This document shows, piece by piece, positions 14,973 through 63,729 of a stretch of DNA of 64,000 bases. The position numbers and the translations under genes are program-made. The stretch spans positions 3,100,001 to 3,164,000 of the forward strand of contig CP126198.1 of NCBI GenBank assembly GCA_030272155.1, read 5' to 3'. The stretch is from Tetradesmus obliquus (Eukaryota; Chlorophyta; Chlorophyceae; Sphaeropleales; Scenedesmaceae). The notes beneath the pieces were generated by a model that saw nothing but the letters and a program-made list of their open reading frames with translations, was not told the origin of the DNA and did no database searches. Within the stretch, counting starts at the first letter, position 1, and every line of letters begins with the position of its first letter.

Positions 14973-17900
14973 ATGCTAGCATGCTGCAGCAGCATCATCA
15001 GCAACAGCAGCAACAGCAGCAGTAGCAGCCCACCAGAAACCAAAATGAAGGAACTCGACCTCATAAAGTCTTCAAATGACAAGAAGGATTACAAATATGT
15101 AAAGCTCAGCAACGGCATAGCTGTGCTATTGATCCATGACCCGGCGGTTGCTGAGGCCCTTGCTGCTGAGGTGGGTATGGCCAAGTTCAAGAGACAGCTG
15201 GCAGCAGCACTGCAGCAATCACACATACTCCCTTTAGAAGCCAAAAGTAGTTGATGGGAGATTACCGCCTTCTTTTCAAAAACTTGTGTGGCTGCTTGGG
15301 CTCTAGGCTGTGTTTTCAATTTGTTGATTGCTTGTGATGCACTACCAGCTGCCAGAAACATCACCTGCAGCAGCTGTGTGTGCGGTGATCTCAACACATA
15401 CACACACTCCACACAACAGCGCGACTCGCAAAGCACAACACAACAAACTTTTAAAAGCATCATGTGCTGCTGCTAATTGCTTGCAGGATGGCAAGCAGGC
15501 AATGGATGTGTCGGAGGATGGCGAGCAGCAGTCAGGCAGCGGCAGTGGCAGCGGCAGCGATGATGATGAGGATATGAGCGGCAGCGGCAGCGAGGAAGGC
15601 AGCAGCGGCAGCGAGGAGGATGAGGGGGAGGAGTCAGATGAGGAAGAGGCTGGCGGCAAGAAGGGCAAGAAGCAGAAGGGGCAGATGGCTGGCTCAAAGA
15701 AGGTTGGTTGGCTGATTGGTTGGGTGGTTGGGTGGTTGGGTGCTGATGTAACATGTGTGGTTGCTGAGGCAGCTGCGCCAGGCAGGCATGGAACAGTGCA
15801 CGGGCATGCTGCTTGATGTGCTTGGCAGCAGCAGCGGCAGCAGCAGAAGCCAGCAGCTTGCAGGCAAGCACAGCGCAGCACGGTGGATGCAGTCATCCTG
15901 CTAGCACCTGCCGCAAACCAGACTGCTACTGCTGCGATCAGCGCTGCCGCAACCTACGGCTGCACTCATAACATCCCCTTCTTCTCCTGCTGCTGCAGGC
16001 GGCAGCAGCCATGGCTGTGGGTGTGGGCAGCTTCTCAGACCCAGCTGAGATGCAGGGCCTGTCCCACTACCTGGAGCACATGCTGTTCATGGGCAGCGAC
16101 AAGTTCCCGGATGAGAACGAGTACGATGCTTACCTGAGCAAGCACGGCGGCTCGTCAAATGCGTTCACAGAGCTGGTGAGGTGCTAGCTGCTTGTAGAAC
16201 GATTGTTAGAGGCTGGTAGTTTTGTTGGAGGTGGTTGGTCTTTTGTGGCAGCTGCGTGGTGCAAGCGCGGAGCAGCACCAGGACACCTGCGCTGGCCGAG
16301 TGCAGTGTCCGGCATAGTGTCTTGTACTAATGGCACAGTAGCTGTCTAGTGCAATGTGCAGTGCAGCGTCCAGCCCTGCTTTGTTTTCCCTGAATGTGCA
16401 ACCAACTCTCAATCGCATGCCGCACCTTTTGGCCTGCCCCTCGCTGTTACGGGCGCTATGCTGCTTTGCCAACATCTGCTGGCTGTGCCCGCGCAGGAGT
16501 TCACCAACTACCACTTTGAGGTGGCTCCCGCACACCTGGAGGGAGCGCTGGACAGGTTTGCGCAGTTCTTCGTGGCGCCGCTGTTCAAGGTGCGCAGGCG
16601 GCTGAAGCAACAGCAGCGCTGCAGCAACATAGCACCCTTCCTGCTTGTGTGTGCTGCTGTTCACAGTGGGGCAGGCGGGGCAGCTGAGGCAGGTGCTGTG
16701 GCCTTGTGCGCTGCAGCTGCGACCACGTTGTTCCCGTGCACTGCAACAAGCTCTGCCACCTGAGTTGCTCTGTGTCATTTTGTCATGCTGCCGCAGGCTG
16801 GCGCGCTGGAGCGTGAGGTGCAGGCAGTGGACAGCGAGTTCAGCGGGGTGCTGCAGTCTGACCACTCACGCCTGGCGCAACTCATGTGCCACACGGTGAG
16901 CAGCGTCATGAGGTGGTGCATTGCTGCAGTGCAGCAGCGCAGCAGTGCGGGAAGGCGGGAGGTTGTCGGCATGCCAGCTGATGTGCCACACAGTGAGCAG
17001 CGTCATGAGGTGGAGCAGCATCACATCAAGGCAGCAGTGCGACAGCGCATTGCGGCGGTGCAGTGCTGCGATAGCAGTTTCTGTGCCACACAGTAAGCAG
17101 CACAGCGCGGCAGAGCAGTATGGCAAGCATGTGGGGTTACTTTGCGCGGCAGTGCAGTGCGGCAGTGCAGTGCGGCAGCAGCTCATGTGCCACTCGGTGA
17201 GCAGCGCAGAGCAGAGGTGCTGCCGCAAGAGGCAGTGCAGTGCGGCAGTGCAGTGCGGCACTGCATTGCGAAGGGGGGCGCAGCAGCGCATTGCAGCGTG
17301 CTGTGCTGCAGAGCAATGCGACAGCATAGTACGGCAGCAAAGTGCGGCACCAGAGAGCAGTTGCAGTACCTGCTGCTTCGGTCTGAACACCAACGGCTGC
17401 TAGCTTGTGTATGGCGCTTTGATCAGCAGCTGCCATTCCAACATTCACCTCTGTACTGTTGTCGCTGCTGCTGCTGCTGCTGCTGCTGCCGAACACCAAA
17501 CACAACCGCCTGCAGTCCAAGGCTGGCCACATCTACAACAAGTTCAGCTGGGGCAACCTGGCCAGCCTGTGGAGCCAGCCCCGCGCTGCCGGCATTGATG
17601 TGAGGCAGCGCATCATCGACTACTACAGGTGGGGCTTTGACCATGTTTGACCGCACTTTGACCATGCTTTGACCGTACATTGACCGCCCTGCTCTGGCTA
17701 GGCCAGGGCTTGTCTGCAGTGTTCTTGTTGTGGTACTCAAAACCCTTTCCGAAACGAGCTACTAGGTAGCGCCCCCAGCAGCAGTACCAATCAACACGTT
17801 GTACGATGTGCTCTCCCCTGCTGCTGTGCATACCCGTCACCCTTGTTTCACAACTCTCACTGTCGCAGGGCGCAGTATGGCCCTGCGCGCATGAGCCTGG

Positions 17901-20900
17901 TGCTACTGGGTGGGCAGCCGCTGGATCAGCTGGAGTCCTGGGTGCGGCAGCTGTTTGATGCCGTGCCCCAGGGCGTTGCTGGGCGGCCGCCAGCATTCAG
18001 CGACGCTGGCATGCCTTTTGAGGTGCGCTGCTGCTCTGCGCTGCACCCCTTTGCAGCTGGATGGTGGTTGTGTCTGGCTTTGAGGGTTGGCGGTGCCTGC
18101 CGCATGCTGTATGCATCACCACGAACCCTGTCGCACTCATGGAATCACCTGTGCTAGCGTTACTCCTGCACATCGTGCCTCATGTAATGCAGTATGCGGA
18201 CAAAACATACGCCTGCGCTCACCTCAATCTTGTACTATGTGCTTCCTCCCCGTCTCTCATTACGCTGCAGGGCCGCGTGCTGTATGTCGCGCCTGCGGTG
18301 AAGGAGCACCACGAAGTGACCGTGACCTTCCAGCTGCCCTGCCTGCGGCCGCTGTATGCGAGCAAGCCCGACCACTACATCAGCCACCTGGTGGGACATG
18401 AGGGGCCCGGGTCGCTGCTGGCAGCACTCAAGGTGCGTGTAAAAGTATTTCACGCGCTGTCCAGGGAAGAGGAGAGGTTATGCTGCAGGTCATGCTGCAC
18501 GATGCAAGGTGCTGCGCCATCACAGGCCAAGCACGCCGGCCTTTACAATGCATGAAAGAGGATTGTGATTGATAGCATGTGCATGGGTGTGCTGCCAAGC
18601 CCGACCACTGCATCAGCCACCTTGCGGGGCATGAGGGGCCGGGCTCGCTGCTGGCAGCACTCAAGGTGCGCGTGTGCATGCGCGGCGGTTGGTATGGCGC
18701 GGGAAGAGAACATGCAGCAACAGATAGTACTACCGAGCTGTGGCGTGCATGATGAGACGCCTCTGCGTACAGAATATCAAGCACGACTGTAAGATTTTCA
18801 CATGTTCGAACCGCAGGCGCGCGGCTGGGCCATTGAGCTGTGGTGCTGCTGTTGCTGTGTCATCACACAAGCAGCACAATGCTTTGACAAGCTTCATGTG
18901 TTTACATGTCAACAGGCGCGCGGCTGGGCCATCGAGCTGTGTGCGGGTGTTGATGATGACGGCTACAGCGCCAACACAGCAGCCTACCTCTTCACCGTGT
19001 CCATCGTGCTGACCGAGGCGGGGCTGGCTGCTGGGCCCGGCTGCGGGCTTGCCCCAGTGGCGCTGCTGTTCCAATACCTGAGGCTGCTCACGGAGACAGG
19101 TGCGGTTCATCTCATTTCTTCTCTGCTGTGTATACAAGGCTTGTGAGGTATATGTCTCTCCTGCATGTGTTATATCCTGGGGGTTTGTTGGTGCTGGCGC
19201 CTGTTGCGCTGCTGTTCCAGTACCTGAGGCTGCTGACAGAGACAGGTGCGCTCCTCCGCCGTATGCTTGAAGCATCTAGGGTGTGTGCGTCGCATGCCCA
19301 CTTGTGATTGTGTGCACTGGCAACAGTGGCAGCAGCAGACAAGGAAGGACAGGCCTACTCTGTATTTGTCGCTCCCGGGCTGATGCAAAGCTCAACTTCA
19401 AACTGTTTTGTTGTGCTGCAGGCCCTACTCTGTCATATCTACACTGGCTGGTCATTTTAACGTTCCAAAATTGATCTGGTGTGCTGCAGGCCCACAGGCC
19501 TGGGTGTGGCAGGAGATTGCTGCCATCGTGGGCATGAAGTTCAGGTTTGCAGAAGAAGAGGACAGCTGCGACCTCGTCACCCGCCTAGCCAGCAACATGG
19601 GCTGGGTGGCGCCGCAGCACCTGCTGGCTGCGGAGTACCTGCACGAGGAGTGGCAGCCGGAGAAGGTGAGGGGCTTGCTGATGCCCTGTTGTCGTCGTTG
19701 GATCTGTTTGCTGGCAGCGTTATCATGTGCATGAGCAGCCCAAGGAGGTGATGAGGGAACGTGATGTGCCCTGTAGGCGTGTACATGTCCTCTACCTGCA
19801 GCAATGCTGCCTGCAGGTGGCCAGCTCTGTCAGTTCGGCCCAAGGTTGAGTGCTGAGATTTTGAATCTGCTGCCACAGTGTATCCATACTGCCTGTTGCA
19901 TGCTGCATGCAATGTTCTTGGTCTTATGTGCCCGTTGTCATGCCTGCAGGTCGCCGAGCTGCTGCAGTGCATGCAGCCAGCCAGCAGCAGCTTCCGTATC
20001 GACCTGCTCACAAAGTCATACGCAGCAGTCCAGCAGCAGCTGCAGGAAGCAGCAGCAGACCCAACCAGCTGGCTAAGCTCAGGCGACAGCAGCAGCAGCA
20101 GCAGGGTTCAGGGCTTCACTGAGCCCTGGTTCAAGATGGATGCGCTGTTGGTCAAACTTCCTGACAGTTTGACCGGCGGCTGGGCTGAGTCAGCAGTAGC
20201 TGATGACCTGGCGCTGCCACCGCCAAACCCTTACATACCGTCTGACTTTGAACTCAAAACAGATGGCAGCACAGCAGCAGCAGCAGCAGCAGCGGCGGCG
20301 GACAGTAAGCAGCTGCTGGCAGCAGTTGCGCCGTGGATGCTTGTGGGCGGAGCAGCAGCAGCAGAAGCGCAGCCGGAGATGCTGCTGGCGGCCCCGCCTG
20401 CCATGCTGCTTGATGAGCCAGGTGCGTGACACCACTTCTGCAGCAGGCCGGCAAATTGCAACCTTTTGTTGCTGTCCCCGGCAGGATGACATGTTGGCAG
20501 GCAGGGAGTAATGGGATTACTGCTTCACTCCTTGCAACCATGCCCAGCTAGCGCTTGACGTCTGTGTGTGCTATCTCTGCATGCATCACCGCTCCTGCAG
20601 GCCTGCGGTTGTGGCACAAGCTGGCCAGCTCCTACCAGCAGCTGTGACAGCAAAGGTAACAGCAGCACCTGCCTGCATAGAAAAAATCGTGCTGGACTGG
20701 ATCACTGCACCTTCAGCCCGTGCGCTGTTGCCGCATGCATTCCTGCAGGCCTGCGTCTGTGGCACAAGCTGGCCAGCAGCTACCAGCAGCCGCGCGCCTG
20801 TGCCTACTTCCGTCTGGCCGGGCCTGCTGCTGCTGCCAGCGCTGTTGCTGCCGTGCTGGGCGCGCTGTGGATGCGGCTGGTGGAGGAGGCGCTGGCGGAG

Positions 20901-23900
20901 GATGCGTACCTGGCAGGTAAGCCGACCCGCACTATCTATTATGTAGAACAAGCTTTTTTTGTCTGATTCCGGCTGCAGCTCTTGCAGTGGGCGGCGGGTG
21001 GAGGAGGCACTGGCTGAGGACGCCTACCTGGCAGGTAACAAATCGTAATATGGACCAACTGTACAATGTTGATATCGAATGCAGCTTAGATCCAGATCCA
21101 ACAGCAGTTCGTGTGAATGCGGCTGGTGGAGGAGGCGCTGGCCGAGGACGCGTACCTGGCAGGTGCGAAAACCCTATTACAGCAACTTTGTCTGTTGCTC
21201 TGCGTTTTGGTTTCTTCAAAAACCAGCTCCAGCTCAACATGCCGCTAGTAGGAGCTTCGGTGAGAGCTTTACGCAGCAGCTGCATCTCAGTTCTCAGATG
21301 CACTAGCTGACACGTGTGCGCGACCCCTGTTCCCCATCTGTGTGCCGCAGACGTGGCTGGGCTGCACTGCTCCTGCAGCAGTGAGGGCGCAGCCGGCTTT
21401 GAGCTGCGCGTGGACGGCTTCAGCCACAAGCTGGGGCTGCTGGCGGGGCGCGTGTTTGAGGCACTGGCGGGCTGCAAGGTGCGCATGTGGCAGTGCTTGC
21501 TCGCTTGTACTGCAAGTAGGCTTTCCTGGTCTGCCGCATTTGTATGTATCACCGGTAGATGCTTGAACTCTAGCTACAGCTGGCTCCAGAGGGCAAGTGT
21601 GTTGTAGCGATGCGATTGAGGCCCCCTCTCCTGTGTGTTGTGTCTGTGCTGCACATTGCAGGTGCGCCCCCACACCTTCCCCGCGGTGCACGAGCAGCTG
21701 CTGCGCCGCTACCGCAACGCCATGCTGCAGCCGGGCAAGGCTGCTGCTGCGCTGCGGCTGCAGTGCCTGGCTGGCGGGCCGCACTGGAGCGCTGATGAGC
21801 TGGCGGCGGCAGTGGAACAAGTAAAGGACGTGGCGGAAGTGCAGGTGCGGCGCAAGTGCATGGCTGTGAAAGCAGCGACCAGCTGGCAGCCAGCTGACGG
21901 CAGGTCTGCTTTGCTTGGCTGGCGTGACCTGCAGCAGTGCTGTGCCACCCAGTAAGTCGGTGGCGTTGCTTTGGACTGCGCTGATGCGCCGCAATTGCTT
22001 GTCCTCCACTCCTTGCCCCTGGCTTTCTGAGCTGCTCCCATGCCTCTGCTGCTGCTGCCGTCGCCAGGCGTTTGCCTCCCAGTTCCTGTCCTGCTGCCAC
22101 ATGGAGGGACTTACCATCGGCAACATCACCGCCAAAGAAGCAGAAGCCCTGGCACGCTCCCTGCGCACGACCCTCTCGCAGCAAGGCGGCGCAGCAGGCG
22201 CCACCAATGGCAGCAGCAGCAGCAGCAGCAGCAGGGATGTAAAGCTGCTGGCGGCTGGTGACCGGCTGGTTGAGCAGTGTGTGGTGCTGCCGAGTGGGGT
22301 GGCGCTGCTGCACAAGGCTGCTGCACGCAACCCGGAGGAGGAGAACTGCTGCGTGGAGGCGTACTACCAGGTGAACAATGATGATGTTTACAGCGCTGCA
22401 TTGTGTGTTTAGGGGTGCGCAGCTGGCCAGAAGTGCTGCTGCAAAGGTTTCCACATTGCTGCACTGTGATTCACACTTGCCAGCTTATGTATGGCCTGTG
22501 TGCTGCGCAGTTCGCTGTCGTGTTTAAAACGAATGTAGCAGCTCCGCAGCGTTGTTGCTGCCTGGAATCATCTTCCGCACTGCTGCTGTATGCTCTGCAG
22601 ATTGGCATGTCGACAGACCTGCGGCTGCGAGTGCTGACAGACCTCATGGACCAGGTGGGTGGCTGCTGCTGCTGCTACTGCTGCTTGCAGCGCTTCCGCA
22701 GCTCGTGCAGCTGGTCACTTGCTCAGTCTTCAAGCGATAAGACCCATGCAAGCTGCCTATGCCAGCTGCCATTCAAAACACACAGATTGATGACCCTGTT
22801 GCGCATACTCTGGCTGGCGCCTAGCTGCCCTCCATCTGCGCTGCTGTCAATCCACCTCCCGCCTTTGCACAACCATGCACTCACTGAACACATCCTACTA
22901 CTGCCATTTCCACTATCTCCGATCTTCCTTTCCATGTTTTCAGGTGCTGTACGAGCCTGTGTACGACACCCTGCGCACCAAGCAGCAGCTGGGCTACAGC
23001 GTCAGCAGCGGCGCGCGGCTCACGCACGGCGTGTGCGGCTTCTGCGTGGTTGTCGTGTCGCCCGCATTCAGCGCTGCCGAGGTGGAGGGCCGCATAGAGG
23101 CTTTCTTGCAGGACTTTGCAGGCACGCTGCAGGTGAGGGGCCAGGGTGCAAAATGTTCTTTGAGTGTGTATGGTGTGGAACATCTGCAGAGGTGGAGGGC
23201 CGCATCGAGGCCTTCCTGCAGGACTTCGCCGGTTCGCTGCAGGTGAGGGGCCGGGATGTAGCCATCATGTAGCTGTTACATAACCGCTGGCACCTGTCGC
23301 ATGACATGTGAGGGGATGAAGGGCCTGCTTTGGTTGTTTCAACAGTTGCGGAGACAACACATGAGCATGATATCAAACGAATCCCTTGGCACATCTGCGT
23401 AGTTGTCTTTTGGTGCTGCAACTCCTGTCCCTGCTGCTGCTGCTGCTGCTGCTGCTGCCTGGTCAAACATGCAGGCCATGCCCCAGGAGGAGTTTGACCG
23501 CCACAAGGCGGCGCTGGCCAGCAACAAGCTGCAGAAGGACACGGCACTGGCACAGGAGGCTGACAGGGCCTGGGAGCAGGTGCGGCAGAAGCACAGTGGC
23601 ATGCAATGCGCAGCCCTGCGGCACATGACACAGTGTTCAGTGGCGTGACGGCAGTACAGCTGTGCAGGCAAAGATTAGCTGCGGAGGCTGACAGGGCATG
23701 GGAGCAGGGGCGGCAGGGAACAGCAGCAGTATGCACCTCTCAGCAGCAGTATGGCGCATCTCAGCAGCACTCAGACCGTGTTTGTGCGCCAGATGCACAG
23801 CTGTGCTATGTTTGAGCGTGCAGCAGTGCTTTCCATCTGACATCCTGCTGTGCTTGCGGCTCGCAGGTGTTCAACGCCCGCTATGAGTTCATCTGCAAGG

Positions 23901-24469
23901 AGCAGGAGGCTGCACTGCTGCAGTCCATCACACTGGCAGAGCTGCAGCAGTTCTATGCAACCCATGTTGCCCCCAGCTCTGCGCAGCGGCGCAAGCTGAC
24001 TGTGCGGGTGATCCCCAACCGCCAAGGCAAGGCCACAGCAGCAGCAGCAGCAGCACAGGGCGCTGAGAAGGGTGACAAGCAGCAGCAGCAGCAGCACGTG
24101 CAGCATGAGCATGGCATGGTGGAGCCAAACTCGCCTCGCCAAGGCGGAAAGCACATTGTAGGTGCTGAGGTGGTGACTGCTGGCTGCGGCGCTGCAGCAG
24201 AGCAGCAGAATGGCGATGCAGCAGCAGCAGCAGCAGCAGGCTCGCCAGGTAGCAGGCAGCTTCAGGCCAAGCGGCAGCGGAGGCAGCAGGCTGAGGAGCA
24301 GCCTGCTGAGGCTGCAGCAGCAGCAGGTGGGGGTGAGGTTGATGCTGCCGCACTGCTGGCGCCTGGTGTGCAGTTGCAGGTGGTGTCTGACCCTGTGCAG
24401 TTCAAGCAGGGCAGGGAGCGGTACCCTGGCTACTGCACTGTGGTGCCGCAGCTGGCACAGCAGCAGTGA
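14973..24469 (+). CDS. Nardilysin-type M16 metallopeptidase
   Basis: Insulinase-family zinc protease, 1258 residues by this model, longer than insulysin (about 1020) and like nardilysin (about 1150). Exons: 14973-15170, 15487-15702, 15999-16175, 16497-16589, 16797-16895, 17516-17628, 17869-18022, 18271-18432, 18916-19099, 19490-19665, 19950-20421, 20749-20916, 21351-21478, 21662-21844, 22068-22370, 22601-22654, 22944-23132, 23475-23579, 23867-24469. The inverted zinc motif HYLEH is at residues 161-165, with the distal ligand Glu242 in REVQAVDSE. An Asp/Glu/Ser block (about residues 67-135) sits directly before [12 protein letters not shown], exactly where animal nardilysin carries its acidic domain. 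The C-terminal half has the TKQQLGYSV motif. The last exon adds Ala/Gln-rich sequence. The start could also be the ATG at 15045. Many introns contain duplicated exon ends. Confidence 0.92.
16883..17350 (+). repeat. Repeats of exon 5 donor junction in nardilysin intron 5
   Basis: The end of exon 5 with its donor (ATGTGCCACACGGTGAGCAG) recurs in diverged form at about 16980-17014, 17079-17100 and 17182-17210. These copies are embedded in GCAGTGCGGCAGTGCAG-like short repeats that fill the rest of the intron. At least two copies keep a GTGAGC donor. Confidence 0.75.
18596..18672 (+). repeat. Copy of nardilysin exon 8 tail plus donor
   Basis: About 75 bp matching the last part of exon 8 and its donor (18359-18434), with roughly ten differences, lies in intron 8. 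It retains CACTCAAGGTGCG at the donor. The spacing between copies is about 237 bp. Confidence 0.85.
20997..21164 (+). repeat. Two copies of nardilysin exon 12 tail plus donor
   Basis: The exon 12 end (GTGGAGGAGGCGCTGG...CTGGCAGGT, 20878-20918) recurs at about 20997-21036 and 21120-21163, both within intron 12 and both with an intact GGCAGGT donor. A copy of the exon 12 acceptor side also lies upstream at about 20593-20645. Confidence 0.85.
23190..23250 (+). repeat. Copy of nardilysin exon 17 tail plus donor
   Basis: Matches 23078-23138 (GAGGTGGAGGGCCGCAT...CTGCAGGTGAGGGGCC) with few changes and keeps the GTGAGG donor. A shorter copy of the exon 18 end lies at about 23676-23715. Confidence 0.85.
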
Positions 24470-25486
24470 ATGTAGCCGTACACAGGCGGTACACAGGCGG
24501 TATGAACGATGCTTGCAGTATGTTTGCTGCCGGGAGGTAGGTACACAGTGTTGCTTGACTGATCCCAGGACACTGTCAACCACCACCTAGGGCTACCGAA
24601 GACTGAGAACACTTCCCTTAATTGAGAAGCACCAGCCTTGGGCTTGTTGTCAGCCAGTTAAAAAAGATCGGTGACAGACGACTTTGCTTGGCTTTCCATG
24701 AACTGCAAGCACAATCAGTATGCTTCGCCTTTCATGCAGCTTCCCGAAGATGCACGTTTTGCAGCACGGGCGGTGTCACCGCGAGTGCCGCGAGTATCAC
24801 TTGAGCGCTAGGGTCCTGAACTGACAGGGTATTCTGCTCAACAGCCACGAGCCTCTGATCACAACGCCGTCTTCATGCAGTTCTACCCCCCCGTGACGTA
24901 TCTCGTCTTGTCCGCGTTTGAGCAAGCAAAAGTGTCTGCTTGTGGTTCCCTCCAAGTAAACACACGAACTCCCTGATTGGAGGTACGCAGACGTTCAAAA
25001 CATGCACAAGTAGCCTTGCATCGATACAGTGCCAGTGAACAGCAATGTACGGCTGTCGCGACCGATCGGGGCTGCAGCACTGTGCTACTACGACACACTG
25101 ATCGCTGCAGCAGGGCCGGCTGCATTCCTGCCTGTAAATTACACAACTTACTCCTAGTGTCTGATCAGCACTTGCTCGCCTGCAAGGTTCAGGCAGATCA
25201 ACAGTGGCACTGGCAGTAGCAGCAACACGCAACTGTGCAGTGTCGACCTTGTGCGCTCCACCTAGCTTGTCATATTTGGTACACTGCTCAAACTTACTGC
25301 CTCAAAAACCTTGCTGCTGCTGGCTGTGCTGCAGAGCACAGCTGACCAGTGTCCAGCCAGCCTGCAGCTAGCCCAGCACCAGCACTGACAGCGCTTCTGA
25401 GCGAGTCGCTACACGATCACCTTGGTTGGTGGCAGCGGCACAAGAAGTCACCGCCTGGTGGGCTTGCTGCTGGTTAAGCAGCCAGC
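24470..25486. other. Intergenic; nothing recognised
   Basis: Same-strand spacer between nardilysin and the TIR gene. The open frames here have no domain similarity that I can see and no splice-consistent model. It should include the nardilysin 3' UTR and the TIR gene promoter; a TGTAA-like motif occurs only near 25133, rather far from the stop. Confidence 0.45.
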
Positions 25487-26760
25487 ATGCAGCTGGATCC
25501 ACAGCAGCTGAAGCAGCAGTGGCAGCACCAGTGGCATGCGGCACCAGCTGGCCAGGCACCTGCTGAGTCAGCCATGGCTGCAACGCCTTGCGCAGAGGAC
25601 GCACCTGGACAGCCGTCACCTGCTGCGCAGCAGATCAAAACACCAGAGCAGCTAAACAGGCAGGTGTTCATCAGCTACACCAGCCAGGACAAGGAAGCAC
25701 AGGAGTTTGCTTGCAGTATCCTGGCACCTGCGCTGTACTCAGCCGGCATGAACGTGTATGGTGATTTTGAAAGCCTCGAGGCAGGTGACAGGTGGGATGA
25801 GAAGCTGATGGACGCAGCAGCCAACAGCAGGGTGGTGGTGGCAGTGATCAGCCCAACCTACCTGCAGCACTTCCGGTGCATGCTGGAGCTGGACTTAGCC
25901 CTGCATGCACGCAGCGGCTGCAGTCAGCGGCCGCTGGTGATACCCGTCTTTGTCGACACGCCAGGCGAGGGAATAGACGCAGCTGCGGTGAAGTTGTTCT
26001 GGCAGCAGGCAGCGCAGCAGCAGCTGTTAGCTGAGCAGGCAGCGCAGAAGCAGGAGCAGCAGCAGTGGCAGCGGCTGCTGTCACCAATAGAAAAGCAGTG
26101 GATTCAGCCAGAGCGCTGGGCGAGAAACATCACAGTGGAGGCTGAAAAGAAGCAGAACCTGCACCTGCAGGGGTACGCAGACTTCAAGGATGCTAAGCGT
26201 CAGCTGGCTTGTGCTGTTGTGCAGCGTGTTGTGCATATGATGCCTGTACAGGCGGCTCTGCCAACCGCGCTTTTTGGCATGGAGGAGCAACAGGATGAGC
26301 TGCAGCACAAGCTGCAGGACAGGATGGGCGTGTGGCTGTACGGTGCAGGTGAGTGCAGCTGAGAGGCTATGAAACAGGCAGGCAGGCAATTGTCTGGCTA
26401 TTGTCGTCAATCCTGTTTCATTGATGCACTGCAGGCGAGATCAAGTCCAATCCTGGCAACCAGCAAGAGCAGCACCTGGGCTTCAAGATATACCCCAGCG
26501 AGGACTGCCTAGAGCAGGGGCTGCTGCGTGATGGCGCGCTGAAGGTGCAGCTTGCTGTGCTGGCAGTCGGCGGGGTGTTCAGAGATCACGAGAGCAGCAT
26601 GGAGAAAAAGGGCAACATGCGGCAGTTGGCGGTGCACGTGCCTGAAGGCATTGTTGCAGGCATAGAGATTGGCATAGGGTCACTAATGATGAGCAAGAAG
26701 CGGCCAGCACGGTGGGACTGCAGCCTACCCGGCTGCAAGGTGCACGCACCCAAGAAGTGA
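25487..26760 (+). CDS. TIR-domain protein with unknown C-terminal region
   Basis: Two exons, 25487-26348 and 26435-26760 (395 residues; donor CAGGTGAGTG, acceptor CACTGCAG, phase 1). A TIR domain spans about residues 59-160: RQVFISYTSQDKEAQ (box 1), AGMNVYGDFESLEAGDRWDEKL (second conserved segment, given here at residues 86-107), then VVVAVISPTYLQHFRCMLEL. Glu134 in the CMLEL motif sits where the catalytic Glu of NAD-cleaving TIR domains lies, so NADase activity is plausible (inference). A Gln-rich stretch follows. At residues 262-290 LFGMEEQQDELQ...GVWLYGAG resembles the entry to an NB-ARC P-loop, but no GKT/GKS motif of normal spacing follows. The final 100 residues (HLGFKIYPSEDC..., AVLAVGGVF) match nothing I recognise. 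It might be a truncated TIR-NBS type receptor or a separate TIR architecture. Confidence 0.8.
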
Positions 26761-27528
26761 TGTATAGCAGCGAGCGGTTGAGACAAACCACAGCAGTAGA
26801 CCAGGGCAGCATTTGTTGGTTTTGTGTAGTTGTGATTGGCGTTTCTTGTCAGCAGTCATCACTGTCATGTCTTCCAGTTGAGTGCGTGTGCAAGCGCTTG
26901 GTGTCTAGGCTAGTTTATGCTGGGACCAGTGGTGGATTGACACAAGCACACCGTGAGGCCGAAGCACAGCCACTAGCGTTGGAGAGTCAGTTGCTTGAGC
27001 AACAGTTCAGAAGGTGGCCGGTCTGCATTCTGATGTTTTTAAAGCTTGATATTTTATGCCTGTAAGAGCACAGTGAGCAAGACTAGTGTTCACTGTTGGC
27101 AATTTGTGAAGTGGACACAGCAGGGACTGCAGAAGTTTGACCGTGGCCTCACGCAAGTGTTGTCTATTACATTCCTTACTGCAGCTGGCAGCACAATTTC
27201 CAGCAATGTGAGGTATTATAGGTCCAAGCTTACCGCAAGTTTCACATGAACGGTTTCCACAAATGATTGCGTGCCTGAATGGCACTACTGCCAGGACCCT
27301 GGGTTGCAACCTGCATGCCAAGTGACTGATGTCGCAGGCAGACAGATACCTCATTTCGCAAGCCTCATGATGCAATAAGAGCAGCATTGCGTTCACTTTG
27401 AGTCAAAGATCTTGGTAACGGTGTGCAACCAGGTGCTGGGTGCTATCGCTTGCGAGTCGGGAAGGCCAGCCGTTGCTGCAACATCTTCTTCGACTGTTAA
27501 TAGAACGTTTGTTGGTGTTATTGTCGGA
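26761..27528. other. Intergenic; nothing firm
   Basis: Spacer between the TIR and P450 genes. A hydrophobic minus-strand frame (27393-27680) overlaps the P450 leader exon and is probably a shadow of it. No other gene is supported. Confidence 0.4.
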
Positions 27529-30500
27529 ATGAGCGCCACCCATGGCAGCAGAGCAGTGGCTACCACCAGCTGTAGCAGCACCAGCAGCACCAGCAGCAGC
27601 AGGCTGGGCAGGTGCTGGCTCCTAACACGCTCATTGCCGCTGCAAGAGAGACGGCGAAAGGCATATGGCGTAACATGCAAGGCTCAGGCCCCTGCAGATC
27701 CAGCGACCATGGTGAGCATCTGCTTCAGCAGCAGGGCTGAGCCTAGGTACGTAGTAGCAGTTGCACCTGCAGGGCACAGCTGTCGCAGCGCAACAGCTGC
27801 ATCCTCCTGTATCAGGAGGCACAGCTGGCCGCATGCACCTTACGTATATAGTTGCCGTGGCTTCATCTTAGGCACATCACTCACAAAAGGTTGCTTCACG
27901 CCGTGTTGCTGCAGCCTGCTCCCTCGCTGCAGTCGCTGGCTGATGTGGCTGGTGGGGCAGTCACACGCCTGCAGCGGCTGGTGCAGCCGCCACCGCCAGG
28001 TAAACCGCACTTTTGTTACTGGCAGCAGCAGCAGCAGTAGCAGCAGCAGCAACGACGGCTGCAGCGACAGCAGATGCTCAGGCAGCTAAGCAGCAGGTGT
28101 CCTGGCTTCTGCACTGCCCTTCGGCAAGCGGCGTCACCTTACACTGTCAAGTAGACCCCCCATGCACTCATGCTTCAGGTTGAAGCTGCCTGCACCAGCA
28201 GCTCACCATGATTACGCTCCTCAGCCTTGTGTGCTGCACAACCCCCACACGTGCGCATCGGCTGCCCCGTCCGCCTTGCCAGCTGTACATCGCTCCCACA
28301 GCGACTCAACAGCAGTGTTGGCTTGGTACCTTGCTCTTGTGCCTGCTCGTGCTCCCGCAGGCTTCTCACCTGGCCCAGCTGGCGACCAGTCGGTAGGCAT
28401 GCTAGCCGGGCCCCTGGAGTTCATCAGCAGGCTGCATATCAACCCCAACCAAATCAATAGGATGCTGCTGCTGTCCATGCTCTTTGCAACCGCAGGCTTC
28501 CCTCCTGGCCCAGCTGGTGACCAGTCAGTAGGCATGCTAGGGGGTCCCCTGGAGTTCATCAGCAGGCTGCGGAGGCAGCACGGCCAGGTGGTGGGGCTGC
28601 TGCTGGGAGGAGAGCGCGTGGTGCTGCTGAGTGAACCGGCAGCTGCAAAACAGGTGCTGGTGGAGCAGGCAGATGTGTTTGTCAAGGTGAGAGCAAGCTG
28701 GTTTGTGTTGTGGGGTCCTTCCAGCTGGTATGTTCAGCTTGATGAAAGCAGTGCAGGCACCCCTCCTGTGTCATCAAGCTGCTTGAACGCTGTTCGATTG
28801 ACCTGGCTGTTCAGGGTTTGTATGTGTTGTTGGGTTAGCACGGCCGGGTGGTGGGGCTGCTGCTGGGAGGGGAGCGCGTGGTGCTGCTGAGTGAACCGGC
28901 AGCTGCAAAGCAGGTGCTGGTGGAGCAGGCAGATGTGTTTGTCAAGGTGAGAGCAAGCTAGTTTGTGTTGTGGGGTTCTTCGGCTGGAAAGTTCAGCTCG
29001 AAGAAAGCAGTGCAGGCACCCCGCATGTCAACCAGCTGCTGAAGTGCTGCTTGTTTGTCACAGCTAGTTGAGGTTTGTGTGTGCCTAGCACAGTGTAAAG
29101 ACAGCCGGGTGGTGGGGCTGCTGCTGGGTGGCGAGCGCGTGGTGCTGCTGAGTGAGCCGGCAGCAGCAAAACAGGTGTTGGTGGAGCAGGCGTATGTATT
29201 CGTAAAGGTGGGTTGGTCTGGGTTTTGTTATGATGTGAAGCGGCTGGCAAGTGCAGGAGGGCTAGGCTGCGTTGCAATGTGCTTGGAGAGGCTTACCAGA
29301 GTTGCAAGCAATTGCTTGGATGTGTCTCTTTGCAGCTGTTGAAAGTTGCTCGGGTACCTAGCACTGCCAGCATGCTGCCCTGCTGCTGCTTGCCCTGCCC
29401 TGCCCCTGCGTCTCCTTTCCCTCCCGCTACTTCCCAGCTCTCGCCCGTGTGCTATTGCCGCTGCTTTGCCCCTGCAGGCCGGCACTGCCTTCTTTCCGGG
29501 CAGCAGCCTCACAGGCAACGGCCTGCTGGTGTCGGATGGCGAGGTGTGGCGCGCGCAGCGGCGCATGGCCAACCCAGCCTTCAGGAAGGCAGCAGTGGAC
29601 AAGTGAGTGCAGCCGCCATTGGTGTGTTGGGCTCTGTACATGTGCTGCGTGTGTGACTTTGATTGCGTGCGATGACCGGCCTTCAGGAAGGCGGCAGTGG
29701 ACGAGTGAGTGCAATGGCAGCAGCCTGTCGGGCACTTGTGTGTATGCGCTGCTTTGTGTGGCACTGCATGCTTGCCTGACAGCACTCCATTACCTGACGG
29801 CACTAATTTCATGCTATGGTTTTGTCAATGCAGGTATGCAGACGAAATGGTTGCGGCCACACAGGACCTGCTTGACGGTCCCTGGGCAGCAGCAGCAGCA
29901 GCAGCGTCAAGCAGCCAGGGCGGCAGCAGCCGCGGCCAGCAGCAGCAGCAGCAGCAACGGCCAGCTGGCAGCAGCAGCAGCAGCACTTTGCCGGCAGGTG
30001 TGCGTGACGTGTATGCTGACTTCAACCAGCTGACCCTGAACATAACACTTGCAGCACTTTTTGGCCTCAAACACAGCAGCAGCTACAGCAGCAGCGACGC
30101 CGGCAGCAGCAGCAGCAGCAGCGGTAGTAAGCTGACTGACAGTGAGACAGCTGCGCGTGTGGTGTCTGCAGTGGAGCGTGCATTCACATACTTCGCTGCT
30201 CGTGGCGCTACAGCCATGGTTGTTCCGGAGTGGGTGCCTACTCCTGACAATGTGGCATTCAAAGAGGCAGTACAGCAGCTGGATGATCTGGTGTATGGCA
30301 TAATCGACGCCAGGCAAGCAGAGAACAGGCAGCAACAGCAGCAGCAGCAGGGTGTGGATACCGGCAGCAGCAGCAGCAGCAGGACAGATCTGCTGCAGGC
30401 GCTGCTTGATTCAAACGATGAAGCAGGCCGGCCAATGGCCAAGACAGCGCTGCGGGATGAGCTGATGACGCTGCTGGTGGCAGGGCAGGAGGTAGGCTGT

Positions 30501-31896
30501 GCTGCTGTGCTGCAGTGCTGCTGTGTTGTTGTGCTGTTGTGCTGCAATGCCAGCATCAGCACTTGGTTTCTGCATGCTGGTTCGTGTCTGGCATGTCTTG
30601 CAGCGTGCATGTGTGCGTGTTGCCGGCATCGCATGTCCTGCTGCAGCCCTCTCTCATTCACGCTCTGTTGTATGTTGCATACGCGCCAGCTGACTACCCC
30701 TTCAAATTCTTGTGCCTCAGACACACAGCTTTCCCTGCTGCACCTGCATGTGTTGTTCGTTTCTTATGTTTCACCTACCTGCCTTTGTCCTCCTTCCATC
30801 CCTTGACTGCGGTGCAGACGTCAGCCATTCTGCTGGGCTGGGCCGCAGCCCTACTGGCGCACCACCCCAAGGTGCAGGCAGCAGCAGCAGCAGAAGTCGC
30901 AGCCCTGCTCGGCAGCAGCAGCAGCAGCAGCGCCAGCGCAGCAGATATAGGCAGGCTGCCGCTGCTGACTGCTGTGGTGCTCGAGGCTCTGAGGCTGTAT
31001 TCGCCGGCTTATATGGTGGGGCGCTGCGCCAACAGGGATGTGCAGCTTGCTGGCGGTTACACGCTGCCTGCCGGCACCACTGTACTTGTGAGGTGAGGCT
31101 GGGCAGTTGCAGCAGCTGCTGCAGTGCAGAGGGTAGTGTTGTAATCAGTGCGCTGGTGATGACAGTGGTGAGCATTGCAGTGTGGCACCACTGTACTTGT
31201 GAGGTGAGGCGAGGCTTGCGCAAGCCGCTGCACTGCATGAAAAATTACACTTATAGCAGAGTACGGTGTTTATGTGGCGGTGCTTGCAGTTTGCGGGTGG
31301 TTACACGCTGCCTGCAGGCAGCACTGTGTTGGTCAGGTGAGGCTGAGCACCTTCCCTGGTGCGGTACATTTGTTTGGTGGTTGGCACATCTCTGTGACTG
31401 GTGCCTGACCTGCTGGCCCCACCTGCTCTCTGTTACTGCTGCCCGCCAGCCCCCACCTGTTGCACAGGGAGCCCAGCAGCTGATAACAGCGGTAGCGGGT
31501 TTATGTTGTGCTTGGTGTATGCGTCACTTTTCCCGCCCACTGCCTTTTTGCTGCCTGCCAGCCCCCACCTGCTGCACAGGGAGCAGCTGATAACAGCGGT
31601 AGCGAGTCTGTGGCGTGCTTGCCGTATCCATAACTTGTGCCTTCCGCTGCCTGTTTGCTGCCTGCCAGCCCCTACCTGCTGCACAGGGAGCCCAGCACAT
31701 CTTGCCTGCAGTGCATATGTATGATCGTTGCCGCACCTCTCTATCGTTGCCGCATCTCTCTGACTGCTGCCGCACCTGCCTGCCACGCTGTTGTGTGCTG
31801 CTGCCTGCCAGCCCCTACTTGCTGCACAGGGAGCCCAGCAGGTGGCGCAACCCCGCACTGTTCAAGCCAGAGCGCTGGCTGCCGCTGCTCACCGGC

Positions 31897-31939
<43 letters not shown>

Positions 31940-32028
31940 GCATAGCAGCAGCAGCGGGCAGTAGCAATGGCGGCTGCCCGATGCATGAGCAGCAGCGGGA
32001 GAGCTCAGGTGGTGAGGCCCACGCAAAC

Positions 32029-32061: not shown

Positions 32062-32400
32062 GAAGGCAGCAGCGGCAGCTCCGGCTGCCCGATGCATCAG
32101 CAGAGCAGCAGCAGCAGCAGCTACAACTTCATGTCGCTGCTGCGTGACCTGGGGCCAAACGGGGCCTACCTGCCATTTGGCGGCGGCCCCCGCAACTGCA
32201 TTGGCACCGGGTTTGCAATGACAGAAGCGGTGCTTGTTATGGCAATGATGCTGCAACGCTTCGAGCTGCAGCCTGTGACACCTGCTGCTGGCTTTCCGAG
32301 GCCCAAGCCGATGCTGACGCTGCGGCCTGAGGCGGTGCCGCTGCGGCTGCTGAGGCGGCGCCCCCAGCAGCAGCAGCAGCAGCAGGTTGCGGCACAGTAG
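27529..32400 (+). CDS. Plastid-type cytochrome P450 (CYP97-clan-like)
   Basis: Haem monooxygenase, 701 residues. Exons: 27529-27711, 27915-27999, 28496-28686, 29478-29602, 29834-30491, 30818-31092, 31812-32400; all GT-AG and phases close. Exon 1 encodes a Ser/Thr/Arg-rich leader ending near GVTCKAQA, typical of a chloroplast transit peptide. P450 landmarks: Pro-rich hinge PPPPGFPPGPAG, SDGEVWRAQRR, the I-helix AGQET split by an intron, ExxR at Glu470/Arg473, LFKPERW, and haem loop FGGGPRNCIG with Cys635. The leader and haem loop (YLPFGGGPR) are closest in my judgement to clan 97, whose best-known members hydroxylate carotenoids in plastids; the substrate here is unknown. Poly-Ser/Gln insertions, one with two CPMH motifs, separate the core blocks. 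The exon 2 acceptor could also be at 27933. Several junctions are locally duplicated. Confidence 0.85.
28356..28434 (+). repeat. Copy of P450 exon 3 acceptor and 5' part
   Basis: A roughly 79-bp copy of the acceptor and first third of exon 3 (28491-28569) lies upstream in intron 2. It keeps CCGCAG and the following GGCCCAGCTGG...ATCAGCAGGCTGC but then runs into unrelated sequence with no donor, so it cannot serve as a full exon. Confidence 0.85.
28570..29215 (+). repeat. Three tandem copies of P450 exon 3 tail and donor
   Basis: The second half of exon 3 plus its donor and about 150 bp of intron are present three times with a period near 262 bp (starting about 28575, 28838 and 29100). Copy 2 (28839-28946) has an AG before it, a GTGAGA donor after it, is open for 36 codons and is a multiple of three, so it could act as an in-frame cassette. 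Copy 3 is more diverged. Confidence 0.9.
31070..31345 (+). repeat. Three copies of P450 exon 6 end and donor
   Basis: The end of exon 6 (GGCACCACTGTACTTGTGAG then GTGAGGC) recurs at about 31184-31210 and, more diverged, at 31290-31342 (TTACACGCTGCCTGCAGGCAG...GTCAGGTGAGGC). Each copy keeps a GTGAGGC donor. Confidence 0.85.
31441..31845 (+). repeat. Four copies of P450 exon 7 acceptor and 5' end
   Basis: The acceptor of exon 7 and the bases that follow it (CTGCCAGCCCCTACTTGCTG, then CACAGGGAGCCCAGCA) occur at about 31446, 31557, 31665 and 31802. Only the last is followed by the long open exon. The three others are separated by 105-140 bp and share downstream intron-like sequence such as CTGATAACAGCGGTAGCG. 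Confidence 0.88.
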
Positions 32401-32826
32401 ACATGCATGCATTTGCGTGAATGACGCAACTGCATCGGCGCCGGGTTTGCGATGACAGATGCTTGTTCTGGCCATGATGCTGCAGCGCTTCGAGCTGCAG
32501 CCAGTCTCGCCTGCTGCTGGCTTTCCTCGGCCCAAGCCGATGCTGACGCTGCGGCCAGAGGCGGTGCCGCTGCGGCTGCTGAGGCGGCGCCCCCAGCAGC
32601 AGCAGCAGCAGCAGGTTGCGGCACAGTAGACATGCATGCATTTGCGTGAATGACGCAACTGCATCGGCGCCGGGTTTGCGATGACAGAGGCGGTGCTTGT
32701 TCTGGCCATGATGCTGCAGCGCTTCGAGCTGCAGCCAGTCTCGCCTGCTGCTGGCTTTCCTCGGCCCAAGCCGATGCTGACGCTGCGGCCAGAGGCGGTG
32801 CCGCTGCGGCTGCTGAGGCGGCGCCC

Positions 32827-32888
<62 letters not shown>

Positions 32889-34066: not shown

Positions 34067-43970
<9,904 letters not shown>

Positions 43971-48188: not shown

Positions 48189-51100
48189 ATGGCGTTCCGA
48201 TGCCCTGCCGTGTGGCTGGGCATACTGCTCGTGATGGCCGCAGTCTCCAGCGCCAAATCGTTTGATCTGGCCGGCGATCTTGCGGCCCTTGAAGACTTTG
48301 ACCTCGACCTGCGCAGCCTGCTTCAAGTCAGCACAAGTGCGTGAGCGGCAGAGGTTCGATTGAGCGCAAGCAGATATGCATTCATGCTCGACGTGAATGC
48401 ATTGCATGCGGCTGCACGCGGCAGCTGCTGCCATTGCATCAGCAGCTGCATATGCATGCATGCATGCATGCATGCACGCATGCATGCATGCATGCAATGC
48501 ATTAATGCTTGACTGCATTATATGCTTACAACTGCATGATGCATCCATGTGTTGCCGTAAGCTGCTCACCTCTGGGGATCATTCGCTGTTGCCGCTGGTG
48601 CTCAAGCGCATTGGCCGTTTGTCACTTTCCCCTCTTGTGCGCAGCTGGCAGCTATGGTGCATATGGCGCAAGTGGCCTCGGTCAGTATGGAGGTGCTGGC
48701 GCGTACGGTGGCTATGGCGCGTACGGTGGCTATGGAGGCCCTGCTTACCAGGAGGCTGCTGCGGCACCTCAGCCGCAGTGCAAGAATGAGACCCGCTCCA
48801 GCAGCTTCCTGGTGAGGTGTCAGCGCCCTAGGCTGGTCTGAGCTCAGGCTGAGATGGGGCATAGCGTGTGTGCAACCAGTGATCGATCGCACAAGTGCAG
48901 CCTTATGCACATTGCACTGCATGCATATGAACACACACATGGCGATGCATCAAGCTTATTCTGTTCTGGCCGGAGGCGACTACCCAGCATGCCATGCTGC
49001 CTTATCAGCACAGGCACCGCCGTGTGGTAGTGTGCACCGACCCACTCACTGGCCACAGCACTGCATGGCTTACGCTGCGTGCTGCATGCCATCATGGAGT
49101 GCATGTGGCATGCTGGCTGGCAATTCGTTGAAACACTACACGGCTTGCACCGGCAGTTCAGATGCGGCTGTGTCAGGCTTGCACAGCATGGCTGAACAGC
49201 ATATTAACAATGTGAGCTCGCTCCACATCTGTTTGCAGGTGTACGTTGCTGTGCTGGAGCCAGTCGCCCCTTTGGACGACTTTGAGGCTGCACAAGATGC
49301 CGCATCAGGTGCGTAGTCTCTGGGCTGCGAGGAATGTCTGCATGGTGTGTATGGCGTGTATGCCTGGTCACTGAGAGATCAGCAAGTTCATCATGAACTG
49401 CTGCATCATTGATGGCACTGTCAGTACATTTGTACAGAATGAATGGCTGTCATGTACTGTCTGCATTGCACAGCGTGTTGCGCAGTGCATTGGTGTGAGC
49501 CTAGGATATGTGCAGCCAGCGCTGTTCGCTGCTGTTCAACTGCCTCTTCCACTTTGGGCACATTTAAGGGTGCAACCCTCTTCATATGCGGTAGGATGCC
49601 CTTGGCTGAGCTCGTGCTGCTGCAAGTCGGTGGAGCAAACACAGCACCACCACTTTTTGGATTGTTTGCCCTTGGCTGCTGCAGGTATGACAACACTGTT
49701 TGTTGATGAGAGGACTGGGGCTGTCTGGGCCTCTGGAGAAGTGAAGAACATCCAAAACTTGACGGCTGTGACAATCAGCGCGGTGAGCTGACCATGCAGC
49801 TGCATCAAACCACTGCAATGTGGTGAGCTGCAGCCTGGTGCAGGCAGCATGTGCATATGATAGTACCGATGCAGGCCACTGGCCACGAGCTTTAGTTCTA
49901 TCATATGCACATGCTGCCTGCACCAGGCCGCCGCTCACCACATTGCAGTGGTTCAAGTCTGTGTACTGAATCAATGTAGCTGCCTTGCTGCTAGTGCTAC
50001 TGAAGCGTGAACAGGCGGGAACAAGCGTACCCAGCTGCTTGAACCTTAACGATTGGAACAAACCCCATGCTGCGAATGTGGCTTCACCTGTTGACTGAAG
50101 CAGAGCAGGGCGCCCAAGCCCTCCCATGCATCTGGATTGTGCATGTGTCACAGCTGCCTTGATGCTGCTGCTGCTGCTGTCGCAGGGCAACCTGACCGAG
50201 ACAGGGCCCGTTGTGATGCCACTGCTGCCATCCGCCACTACCATTAGCGTGAACGGCACGCCAACCAGCATTGCAGGTGGGCTTCATGTTATACTCTACT
50301 CTGCTCTGCTCTGCTCTGCTCTGCTATGCTATACTATACTATACTATACTATACTGTACTATACTATACTCAATGGCATTGAGTATGGTATACTCATTGC
50401 AGCATGCAAATACACTCTGTGGTTCTGTGGCGGTATGGCGGGCCTGAGGCTGTGCTGATTTTCTTGCATAGCAGACATAGTTGCACAGGCAATTTGTTGC
50501 ATCATGCTGGCAACAACAGCTGCTGCTCAGCACTACAGCCCATAACAAACCTGTCGTTGGGCCCCCAGTCTTCTTCACCAAGTGATGGTTGCCGTCATCC
50601 ATGCCATGAAGTGACGTATCTCCATGCAAAACCAGATGCAGGGCTGAGTGCTGTTTGGCTGTCTGCTGTGTCTGTGTGTGCAATGGTAGGCTTGAGGGGC
50701 AATGCCACCATCCTCCAGGTGATCATCAATGCCACCGGCCTGAACAAGACGGGCAACAATGACACTTCTGCCAGCACAAGCGCCAATGCAGGTGATGACT
50801 GCTGCGTTGTGCAAACAACCAGTGGTGCTTGCTTTGTAGTTACCAATTGAGGTGACTGAGTGTCGCATGCAGAGGCACCAGCACTCAGTTCCCCCAACTC
50901 TGTGTTTGGCTAGTTTTTTCAGAAAGGGAGCAGCCACTGCACTCATGTTTGTTCAATATGCTGGTTGTGTTGGCAGACCCACGCTGCAAGAGCTTGGTGC
51001 AGGAGTCTCAATGTTGAGCGTGGCTGAATGGGTTGCAGTGTCCTATGCTGGCTGAGCTGCATCTTGCACAGGCACACTGCTTATGTGACCGCAGTAATAC

Positions 51101-60833: not shown

Positions 60834-60879
<46 letters not shown>

Positions 60880-62562: not shown

Positions 62563-62569
62563 GTAGTCT

Positions 62570-63215
62570 GGCCTGCTGGTGTTGGCTGGCTGGCTGGTGT
62601 TGGGCAGGGCTGCAGCAGGGCGTGGTGCACAGCCTGCTCCCTTGCGCGGTGATGCAGCAGCAGCTGTTTGAGGCAGTGGATGAGTAGTAGCTTGCTGGCT
62701 TGGCGTCGACGTGTGGCCCCATGCTGGTGTTTGTGGTGTTGTGCCTGCTTGCTGGTGTTGGGCGTTGCCTGGCGGTGTCTACTTGTAGTAGGGTGGTGCT
62801 TGCGCAGCAGTAGTTAGGGGTGGCTGCAAGCAGCAGTGTGGCTGCTGGTGCTGCTACGGCGATGATCCTGCAGGCCTGGGCTGGCTGTTGAGTAGTCTGG
62901 CCTGCTGGTGCTGCTGGCTGGTGTTGGGCGGTGTCTTGTAGGGTGGCTGCTGGTGTTGGGCGTTGCCTGGGAGGTGTCTACTTGTAGGGTGGCGGTGTCT
63001 ACTTGTAGGGTGGTGCTTGCGCAGCAGTAGGGGGGGCTGCTGGTGCTTCTTGCTTGTGTTGGGCGTTGCCTGGGCGGTGTCTACTTGTAGTAGGGTGGTG
63101 CTTGCGCAGCAGTAGCTAGGGGTGGCGGCTGGTGCTTCTGGCTGGTGTTGAGCATTGCCTGGGCGGTGTCTACTTGTAGGGTGGTGCTTGTGCAGCAGTA
63201 GGGGGGGCTGCTGCT
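62570..63215. repeat. GT-rich minisatellite, about 90-bp units
   Basis: Irregular tandem copies of a unit containing TGGGCGTTGCCTGGGCGGTG, TCTACTTGTAG, GGTGGTGCTTGCGCAGCAG and GCTGGTGTTGGGCG. The clearest copies begin near 62758, 62958, 63060 and 63149. It lies directly behind the stop of the PHD gene. Confidence 0.8.
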
Positions 63216-63322
63216 ACTGCTGAGGATGCACGTGGTGCCTCTGGCAGCAGCAGCAGCAGCAGGGTGCTGGGTGTAAATGTAGCCTGGATGAGGTAAAAAA
63301 ACGTATGTATGTGTGACCTCAG

Positions 63323-63468
63323 CAGCGGCGATCGAAAGCTGTCGAACGCTTAGCATCGAAGCTGGTTGACCTCTACTGGCGCCCTTCTGAGGCTTCTGTG
63401 TATCAGGACGATATCATCTTGGACACCAACTTCGACCCCTGCTTGGCTCACTTGAGAGCGCTTTTTTG
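63323..63468 (+). CDS. Exon of a partial gene running off the window
   Basis: Not recognised. A 146-bp open exon with acceptor ACCTCAG and donor TTTTTTGGTGAGTAC, encoding QRRSKAVERLASKLVDLYWR and then a region ending LDTNFDPCLAHLRALFW. The start may instead be three bases later, after CTCAGCAG. The downstream exons would lie past the window end, and an upstream exon may exist within or before the minisatellite. Codon choice is less CAG-biased than in the neighbouring genes. Confidence 0.5.
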
Positions 63469-63729
63469 GTGAGTACCATCAAACGGCGTCTACTGGCCTT
63501 CCAAACACACCACGAAGTAGTTTTACAGCATCAGAAACCCAATTGTATCGTCAAAACAGGGTTTCAAGCACATTTGCAAGGACGTACCCACTTCGACCCC
63601 TGCTTGGCTCACTTGAGAGTGCTTTTTTGGTGAGTACCATCAAACGGCGTCTACTGGCCTTCCAAACACACCACAAAGTAGTTGTACAGCATCAGAAACC
63701 AAATTGTATCGTCAAAACAGGGTTCCAAG
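63429..63729 (+). repeat. Recent direct duplication of an exon end and intron
   Basis: Two copies of a roughly 140-bp segment (63429-63568 and 63590-63729, offset 161 bp) differ at only about five positions. The unit begins inside the exon (ACTTCGACCCCTGCTTGGC), crosses the TTTTTTGGTGAGTACC donor and continues into the intron. It is the youngest-looking splice-junction duplication in the window. Confidence 0.95.

Follow-up and report, generated by a model that had tools for sequence, protein, structure and literature searches.

Exon-end copies in neighbouring introns of Tetradesmus obliquus genes: probable local tandem duplication and coding-like divergence

Known routes to new intron sequence and the locus studied

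That introns can be gained by tandem duplication is accepted (PMC3443670, PMC4974935, PMC2891723), with described cases in Drosophila (PMC2891723) and in an RdRp gene of potato (PMC4974935); the potato study also notes an intron-internal tandem duplication of 83 bp. The copies of exon ends described here, which we call echoes, resemble these cases in that a short unit inside a gene is duplicated, splice signals are copied with it and the protein may stay unchanged. They are unlike AGGT-type intron gain, as set out in those papers, in that the unit already holds an intron border and an existing intron is lengthened. Internal gene duplication is also reported to be a common process (Gao and Lynch 2009, as cited in PMC4974935), and the duplications seen here are likewise local and confined within genes; what differs is the presence of dense, decaying copies of parts of exons, e.g. 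77 pairs in one 47-kb stretch. Introners, as characterized in PMC9860276, add DNA to introns as echoes do, but echoes appear to be local copies of the host exon and not one element dispersed over genes. A protein-level search for nardilysin finds the echo only at its home locus. In tandem exon duplication, as with mutually exclusive exons, coding copies stand in the neighbouring intron. Echoes share this arrangement; however, it is the ends or starts of exons that are copied and not the whole exon, and the offsets are often not multiples of three. No whole exon copied together with both its splice sites was found among the echoes of the three genes modelled here.

The window, i.e. the whole stretch of DNA analysed (64,000 nucleotides), is C8:3100001-3164000 of a T. 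obliquus assembly of 104.7 Mb in 17 contigs. Three of its genes were modelled, with exon borders set by a custom spliced aligner. The nardilysin (M16) gene (15045-24466, + strand) has 19-20 exons, and all 1108 aligned codons are identical to those of the annotated T. obliquus protein OEZ86_014388 (P0001). Spliced alignment of P0001 to the window gives 20 exons, that of OEZ85_014121 (P0002), the nardilysin of another T. obliquus assembly, gives 19, and the borders used below are those of the 19-exon model. The P450 gene (28496-32400, + strand) was modelled with five exons; its first exon may lie further upstream, and its frame closes at 32400. The MSH1-like gene (34287-43922, - strand) is one of three copies on C8 and will be referred to as c3. 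In the spliced alignments to homologs, 826 of 1039 codons of MSH1 and 372 of 622 codons of P450 are identical; since the exons of these two genes rest on homolog alignment, some of their ends are less certain. Elsewhere in the window, an open reading frame at 25478-26362 may encode a TIR domain, judging by its motif, and a tandem array of related genes occupies 873-10884, with a spacing of 2.5-3.2 kb and matching parts that are 73-86% alike.

Echoes in three modelled genes

Together, nardilysin, P450 and MSH1 contain 29 exon-echo pairs at 19 exon ends, which bears out the report of an earlier note, made from the letters of the window, that exon ends recur in these genes. Typically an echo combines 12-110 bp of exon with a few to about 25 bp of intron and is present in one to three copies in the adjacent intron; most echoes are 27-130 bp long and 80-100% alike, a few P450 copies being longer.

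Nardilysin accounts for 10 pairs at 8 exon ends, all on the + strand. Self-BLASTN of the window, read against the exon model, places two echoes of the end of exon 5 (16797-16895) at 16981-17017 and 17178-17206. The end of exon 8 (18271-18432) recurs at 18596-18670 with four synonymous and two non-synonymous differences. Exon 9 (18916-19099) is copied on both sides: its start, on the acceptor side, at 18814-18854 and its end at 19193-19250, the latter with seven synonymous and no non-synonymous differences. The same holds for exon 12 (20749-20916), with an acceptor-side echo of its start at 20593-20642, where an AGC>TCC change leaves Ser on both sides, and two echoes of its end at 20991-21038 and 21112-21164. 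Finally, the end of exon 17 (22944-23132) is echoed at 23184-23252 (seven synonymous differences, one non-synonymous) and that of exon 18 (23475-23579) at 23683-23716. The introns of this gene that carry echoes are longer than those that do not (mean of 412 versus 258 bp, 7 versus 11 introns, p = 4e-4). Among the few pairs judged by eye, splicing of the AGGT type between copies has one candidate, at exon 17.

The 11 pairs of P450 (+ strand) are found at 6 exon ends, one of which is the stop codon. For the exon at 28496-28686, the start is echoed at 28355-28435, and the end in two tandem copies (28837-28949 and 29104-29210, i.e. 28837-29210 overall) with a period of about 260 in which the intron part has been copied too; in the P450 array, 3 of 110 exon sites differ and the intron part is plainly far more diverged. 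One echo of the end of exon 29478-29602 is at 29679-29713 and two of the end of exon 30818-31092 are within 31184-31349 (31184-31210 and 31285-31349). Three copies between 31437 and 31697 (31437-31478, 31549-31584 and 31656-31697) are related to the start of the exon at 31812. The last coding part, with the stop codon and the 3' flank, is present in 2.8 tandem copies of period 229 (32191-32848), and this set lies on a border between coding and non-coding sequence that has no splice site.

MSH1 c3 (- strand) has 8 pairs at 5 exon ends. The end of exon 42715-42891 is followed by three tandem echoes (42365-42658, offsets of 100, 228 and 336) and its start is echoed at 42975-43023. At 41088-41160 stands an echo of the end of exon 41242-41408, with a last exon codon (Lys) that agrees with the protein of another strain. 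The start of exon 39342-39459 recurs at 39513-39561, and 81-bp tandem units at 39170-39348 reach 7 bases into the end of the same exon. The echo of the end of exon 36214-36394 (36049-36114) is frameshifted by a 1-bp deletion, and two echoes of the start of exon 35094-35222 lie within 35338-35543.

Near the right edge of the window, a young tandem duplication (63425-63729, + strand, period 161, 96%) covers a donor-like site, TTTTTTG/gtgagt, outside the modelled exons. The repeat is 144 bp long (63425-63568 and 63586-63729, 96% alike). The earlier note counted it among the echoes, and the repeat with its donor-like site is indeed there, but no exon model covers it.

The other two MSH1-like genes of C8 (C8:2610320-2621141 and C8:2843645-2854838) provide a comparison. 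These genes, c1 and c2, lie at about 280 and 515 kb from c3. The protein P0241 corresponds to c1, and its C-terminus is presumably a GIY-YIG domain; in aligned codons, c2 is about 97% and c3 about 79% identical to it. With the same criteria, c3 has 15 repeat pairs, 10 of which touch an exon, and no exon echo was found in c1 (three intron-only pairs) or in c2 (no pair). In the one intron compared in detail, intron 3, the length is 511 bp with three echoes in c3 and 194 bp in both c1 and c2, where the unduplicated state is thus found; subtraction of 336, the offset of the last c3 echo, from 511 leaves 175. The echoes in this c3 intron retain codons of c1 and c2 that are gone from the c3 exon. 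For the other introns, the length differences between c3 and c1/c2 go both ways. The compared intron positions agree among c1, c2 and c3, so that no new intron position is seen in MSH1 and the intron gain contemplated in the earlier note finds no example there. As a side observation, in the MSH1 model of a third T. obliquus protein set (P0245), residues 285-459 (P0241 numbering) match twice, because of either a multi-exon tandem duplication or an assembly fault.

Abundance, placement and origin of the copies

Self-BLASTN of the window, after removal of matches in which CAG/CTG-type triplets make up at least 0.6 of positions, gave 59 direct repeat pairs with copies within 4 kb of each other, 7 of which belong to the gene array at 0.9-10.9 kb, and one inverted repeat, a 146-bp imperfect palindrome (49808-49953, 86%). 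Among the pairs listed, none starts between 42.9 and 57.6 kb. The search was extended to 264 kb (2.90-3.164 Mb of C8), with a triplet threshold of 0.5 and with matches shorter than 25 bp or spaced by less than 40 bp or more than 1.5 kb dropped as well. It returned 290 direct and 2 inverted near repeats, as against 0 direct and 1 inverted in one third-order Markov shuffle of the same sequence. The distances range from 87 to 361 bp (5th to 90th percentile). Two broad modes stand out, one at about 100-140 bp and one at about 220-260 bp. Below 80 bp there are only 7 of the 290, although 40 bp was permitted.

Leaving aside 128 direct pairs with fewer than 12 exon bases in either copy and 7 exon-exon pairs, 155 pairs set an exon copy against a non-exon copy. 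Of these, 133 span an exon end (the modelled P450 end and some predicted exon ends not being splice sites) and 22 are internal to an exon. The earlier note held that, in the clear cases, exon sequence is never duplicated without a junction; this is true of the majority, but the 22 exon-internal pairs and the P450 set that crosses a stop codon depart from it. Outside the three modelled genes, exons are the calls of a simple predictor, which matched exactly 21 of 40 known exons and overlapped 34; in the nardilysin and MSH1 regions, 30 of its 31 exons overlap known ones. Pair ends were trimmed to six matching bases, and the high gap costs of the 264-kb search mean that intron overhangs are underestimated. 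Placement and the codon counts per exon end were evaluated on 104 ungapped junction pairs, and the overall codon counts on 125 of the 155 exon-echo pairs (ungapped, with at least one whole codon).

The 77 pairs of the 47-kb stretch, which is upstream and reads as one gene, are distributed over 48 exon ends, with 63 exons predicted; the parts that were scanned contain FAT and PI3/4-kinase domains, on the assumption of a single gene, which we take to encode a TRRAP/Tra1-type protein. Echoes also occur beyond this region, as the earlier note had supposed: exon-end echoes are present in four of nine samples (on C4, C6, C11 and elsewhere on C8), with 18 direct and 0 inverted repeats. These samples of 3-5 kb each, 35 kb in total (C1 twice, C2, C4, C6, C8, C11 twice and C15), were picked by a splice-like pattern or an ABC-transporter match and are therefore non-random. 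Echoes are thus widespread but absent from some intron-rich genes, such as MSH1 c1 and c2, and the habit that the earlier note called genome-wide does not extend to every intron-rich gene. Per 10 kb, repeat density tracks coding density (Spearman 0.70), partly because copies with an exon part remain visible longer. The median gap between neighbouring exons in the 264 kb is 534 bp where there are echoes and 339 bp where there are none (58 versus 109 gaps, p = 1e-6).

We consider it quite probable that echoes are local tandem duplications which survive at borders between coding and non-coding sequence and whose copies may exchange with the functional exon ends. The copies are direct and closely spaced, in 103 of the 104 ungapped pairs the echo flanks its own exon end on the intron side, and in 65% of the 133 junction pairs a contiguous unit can be recognized from intron similarity at a coherent offset (threshold: 95th percentile of controls). 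Outside the matched block, the flank on the intron side is more similar than the control (p = 2e-17), and the flank on the exon side shows no clear excess over it (p = 0.06; 87 ungapped pairs with an overhang of up to 20 bp). The number of exon-internal pairs, 22 against 133 junction pairs, and the similar intron flanks rule out a dispersed copy-and-paste process. The tandem origin is in itself ordinary in kind. A local duplication would copy a unit of roughly 80-370 bp, which would be tolerated if it is wholly non-coding or crosses one border, be it a splice donor, a splice acceptor or a stop codon; such units would survive because the copy adjoining the exon body should still yield the same mRNA. 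Each event would lengthen the intron, and the intron part of both copies would then diverge fast, so that the recognisable remnant is an exon end with its splice signal. Purely intronic copies should fade sooner. Copies may keep exchanging with functional exon ends through gene conversion or unequal crossing-over, with divergent alleles perhaps as partners, in which case an echo would often have been a working exon end shortly before.

The restriction to junctions can be attributed to geometry and selection, since a unit that is tolerated must lie entirely in an intron or extend over a single exon end; simulated tolerated units cross a junction by chance in 43-64% of cases. No observation ties the duplication to splicing, and the stop-codon border behaves alike, which runs counter to the splice-site-specific habit proposed in the earlier note. 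Some results count against our explanation. Echoes close to the exon show no significantly lower age than those farther off (13 of 21, p = 0.19), and 45 of the 104 ungapped pairs have no remaining intron similarity although their exon parts differ by only 9.3%, a contrast between intron and exon that exceeds plain ageing.

Coding-like divergence and its possible causes

The point that the earlier note missed, and the part most worth following in our opinion, concerns the nature of the differences between exon and echo. When one pair is taken per exon end, 171 synonymous and 95 non-synonymous differences are counted over 75 ends, i.e. a synonymous fraction of 0.64 (bootstrap 0.57-0.72). At least one predicted frame looks wrong (168090), and without it the counts are 171 to 86. 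An echo decaying freely beside an exon that tolerates synonymous changes only should, under the mutation spectrum seen in non-exon duplicates, show about 43%. The 171 to 95 divide into 57 to 16 at the 18 ends of the three modelled genes and 114 to 79 at the 57 ends of predicted exons. All 125 ungapped pairs together give 226 to 136; counted by gene, nardilysin has 25 to 4 and P450 33 to 10. For the 49 pairs whose introns can be aligned, divergence is 7% in the exon and 26% in the intron, with gaps counted and the best local alignment taken. For 24 younger pairs, it is 4.3%, 2.3% and 11.4% at codon positions 1, 2 and 3 and 8.6% in the intron; position 1, at about half of the intron rate, agrees with what is predicted for a neutral echo. 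A GC-biased mutation spectrum finds no support as the cause of the third-position excess, non-exon duplicates mismatching more at A/T than at G/C. Overall, synonymous changes are too frequent for an echo released from constraint at birth, and a good part of the divergence of echoes seems to have built up while they were coding. The constraint is uneven: when c3 differences are polarised by c1 and c2, the echo branch has 8 synonymous and 8 non-synonymous changes (p = 0.05 against the synonymous fraction of 0.27 for random changes) and the exon branch 12 and 10, the c3 echoes thus showing the excess weakly, and one of them is frameshifted.

One reading of this excess is that echoes are now functional, purifying selection keeping them as alternative exon ends or as decoy splice sites, and splice dinucleotides do match in 95-100% of the ungapped pairs; such retention, however, is about what the low divergence at position 2 alone would give. 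Offsets that are not divisible by three occur, among them 233, 146, 110 and 118 bp; some echoes carry a stop or a frameshift, and each covers part of an exon only; and the aligned annotated proteins follow the exon copy with the exception of one residue of P0243. Judged from these sequences, a current function is unlikely for most echoes, and a better fit is given by a source allele that was already divergent or by exon and echo exchanging repeatedly. The first of these takes exon and echo to stem from two diverged alleles or homeologs that unequal crossing-over brought together, so that much of the divergence predates the duplication; it is to be taken seriously, even if we would not bet on it. 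It does not conflict with tandem duplication and is a rival solely to the exchange part of our explanation. It would account jointly for synonymous differences, strongly diverged introns and direct orientation, the 7% versus 26% divergence of exon and intron is near the synonymous share of changes, and the proteins of different strains do differ (9 mismatches in the 1082-residue main alignment of nardilysin, 20 between c3 and P0243). Yet the allele divergence needed would, by our reasoning, exceed that suggested by these strain differences, and a single exon end can be present in as many as four versions. Conversion with neutral echoes alone was discarded on the grounds that it should lower divergence but still leave about 43% synonymous changes. 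We suspect instead that exchange between exon, echo and alleles is the cause. One strain datum points to exchange: the last residue of c3 exon 5 is Gln here and Lys in the echo, and it is Lys in P0243, from another assembly. It is a single site and could be a chance coincidence; at the other exon/echo differences that it covers, P0243 has the residue of the exon.

The remaining explanations concern the origin of the copies. Badly merged haplotypes could yield divergent copies, and the clean state of MSH1 c1 and c2 might be held to suit an assembly artefact of this kind, a false duplication of haplotypes; given that one exon end can exist in three or four distinguishable versions, that copies range from 0 to more than 20% apart and that intron decay is graded, this is nonetheless very unlikely, and the earlier note was right that the copies are of different ages and go beyond a simple assembly duplication. 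Reinsertion of splicing by-products, which that note had listed as a candidate, or some other RNA-templated copying could explain why similarity often stops 3-15 bp into the intron. No sign of RNA copies was seen, however: the copies are nearly always direct and adjacent, often include intron sequence with faint similarity extending beyond the block, and the same duplication is found at a stop-codon border, so that we give this process hardly any credence. Nor do we see much chance, indeed next to none, for ectopic copying from paralogs elsewhere, for which the three MSH1 copies of C8 could be invoked. The c3 exon and its echoes have c3-derived states in common, which designates c3's own exon as the source and excludes a paralog for these echoes, and 20 of the 26 matches of the nardilysin protein are at its own locus, the other 6 being distant relatives on C1, at most 50% identical.

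Echoes may form a pool of exon-end alleles that repeated unequal exchange with the live exon end keeps coding-like for most of their life and able to become functional ends again, a proposal that we regard as rather doubtful for the time being. Gene finders may mistake echoes for exons: our simple predictor called several of them, with scores of about 8-20 as compared to 17-59 for predicted exons that match nardilysin exons. According to Table 1 of PMC5966456, the mean intron length is 462 bp in T. obliquus and 230-302 bp in three other Sphaeropleales, and tandem duplication of exon ends could explain part of the long T. obliquus introns. Echoes give a record of earlier exon states inside living genes, and their synonymous excess raises the question of whether intronic copies exchange with exons often enough to stay under selection.
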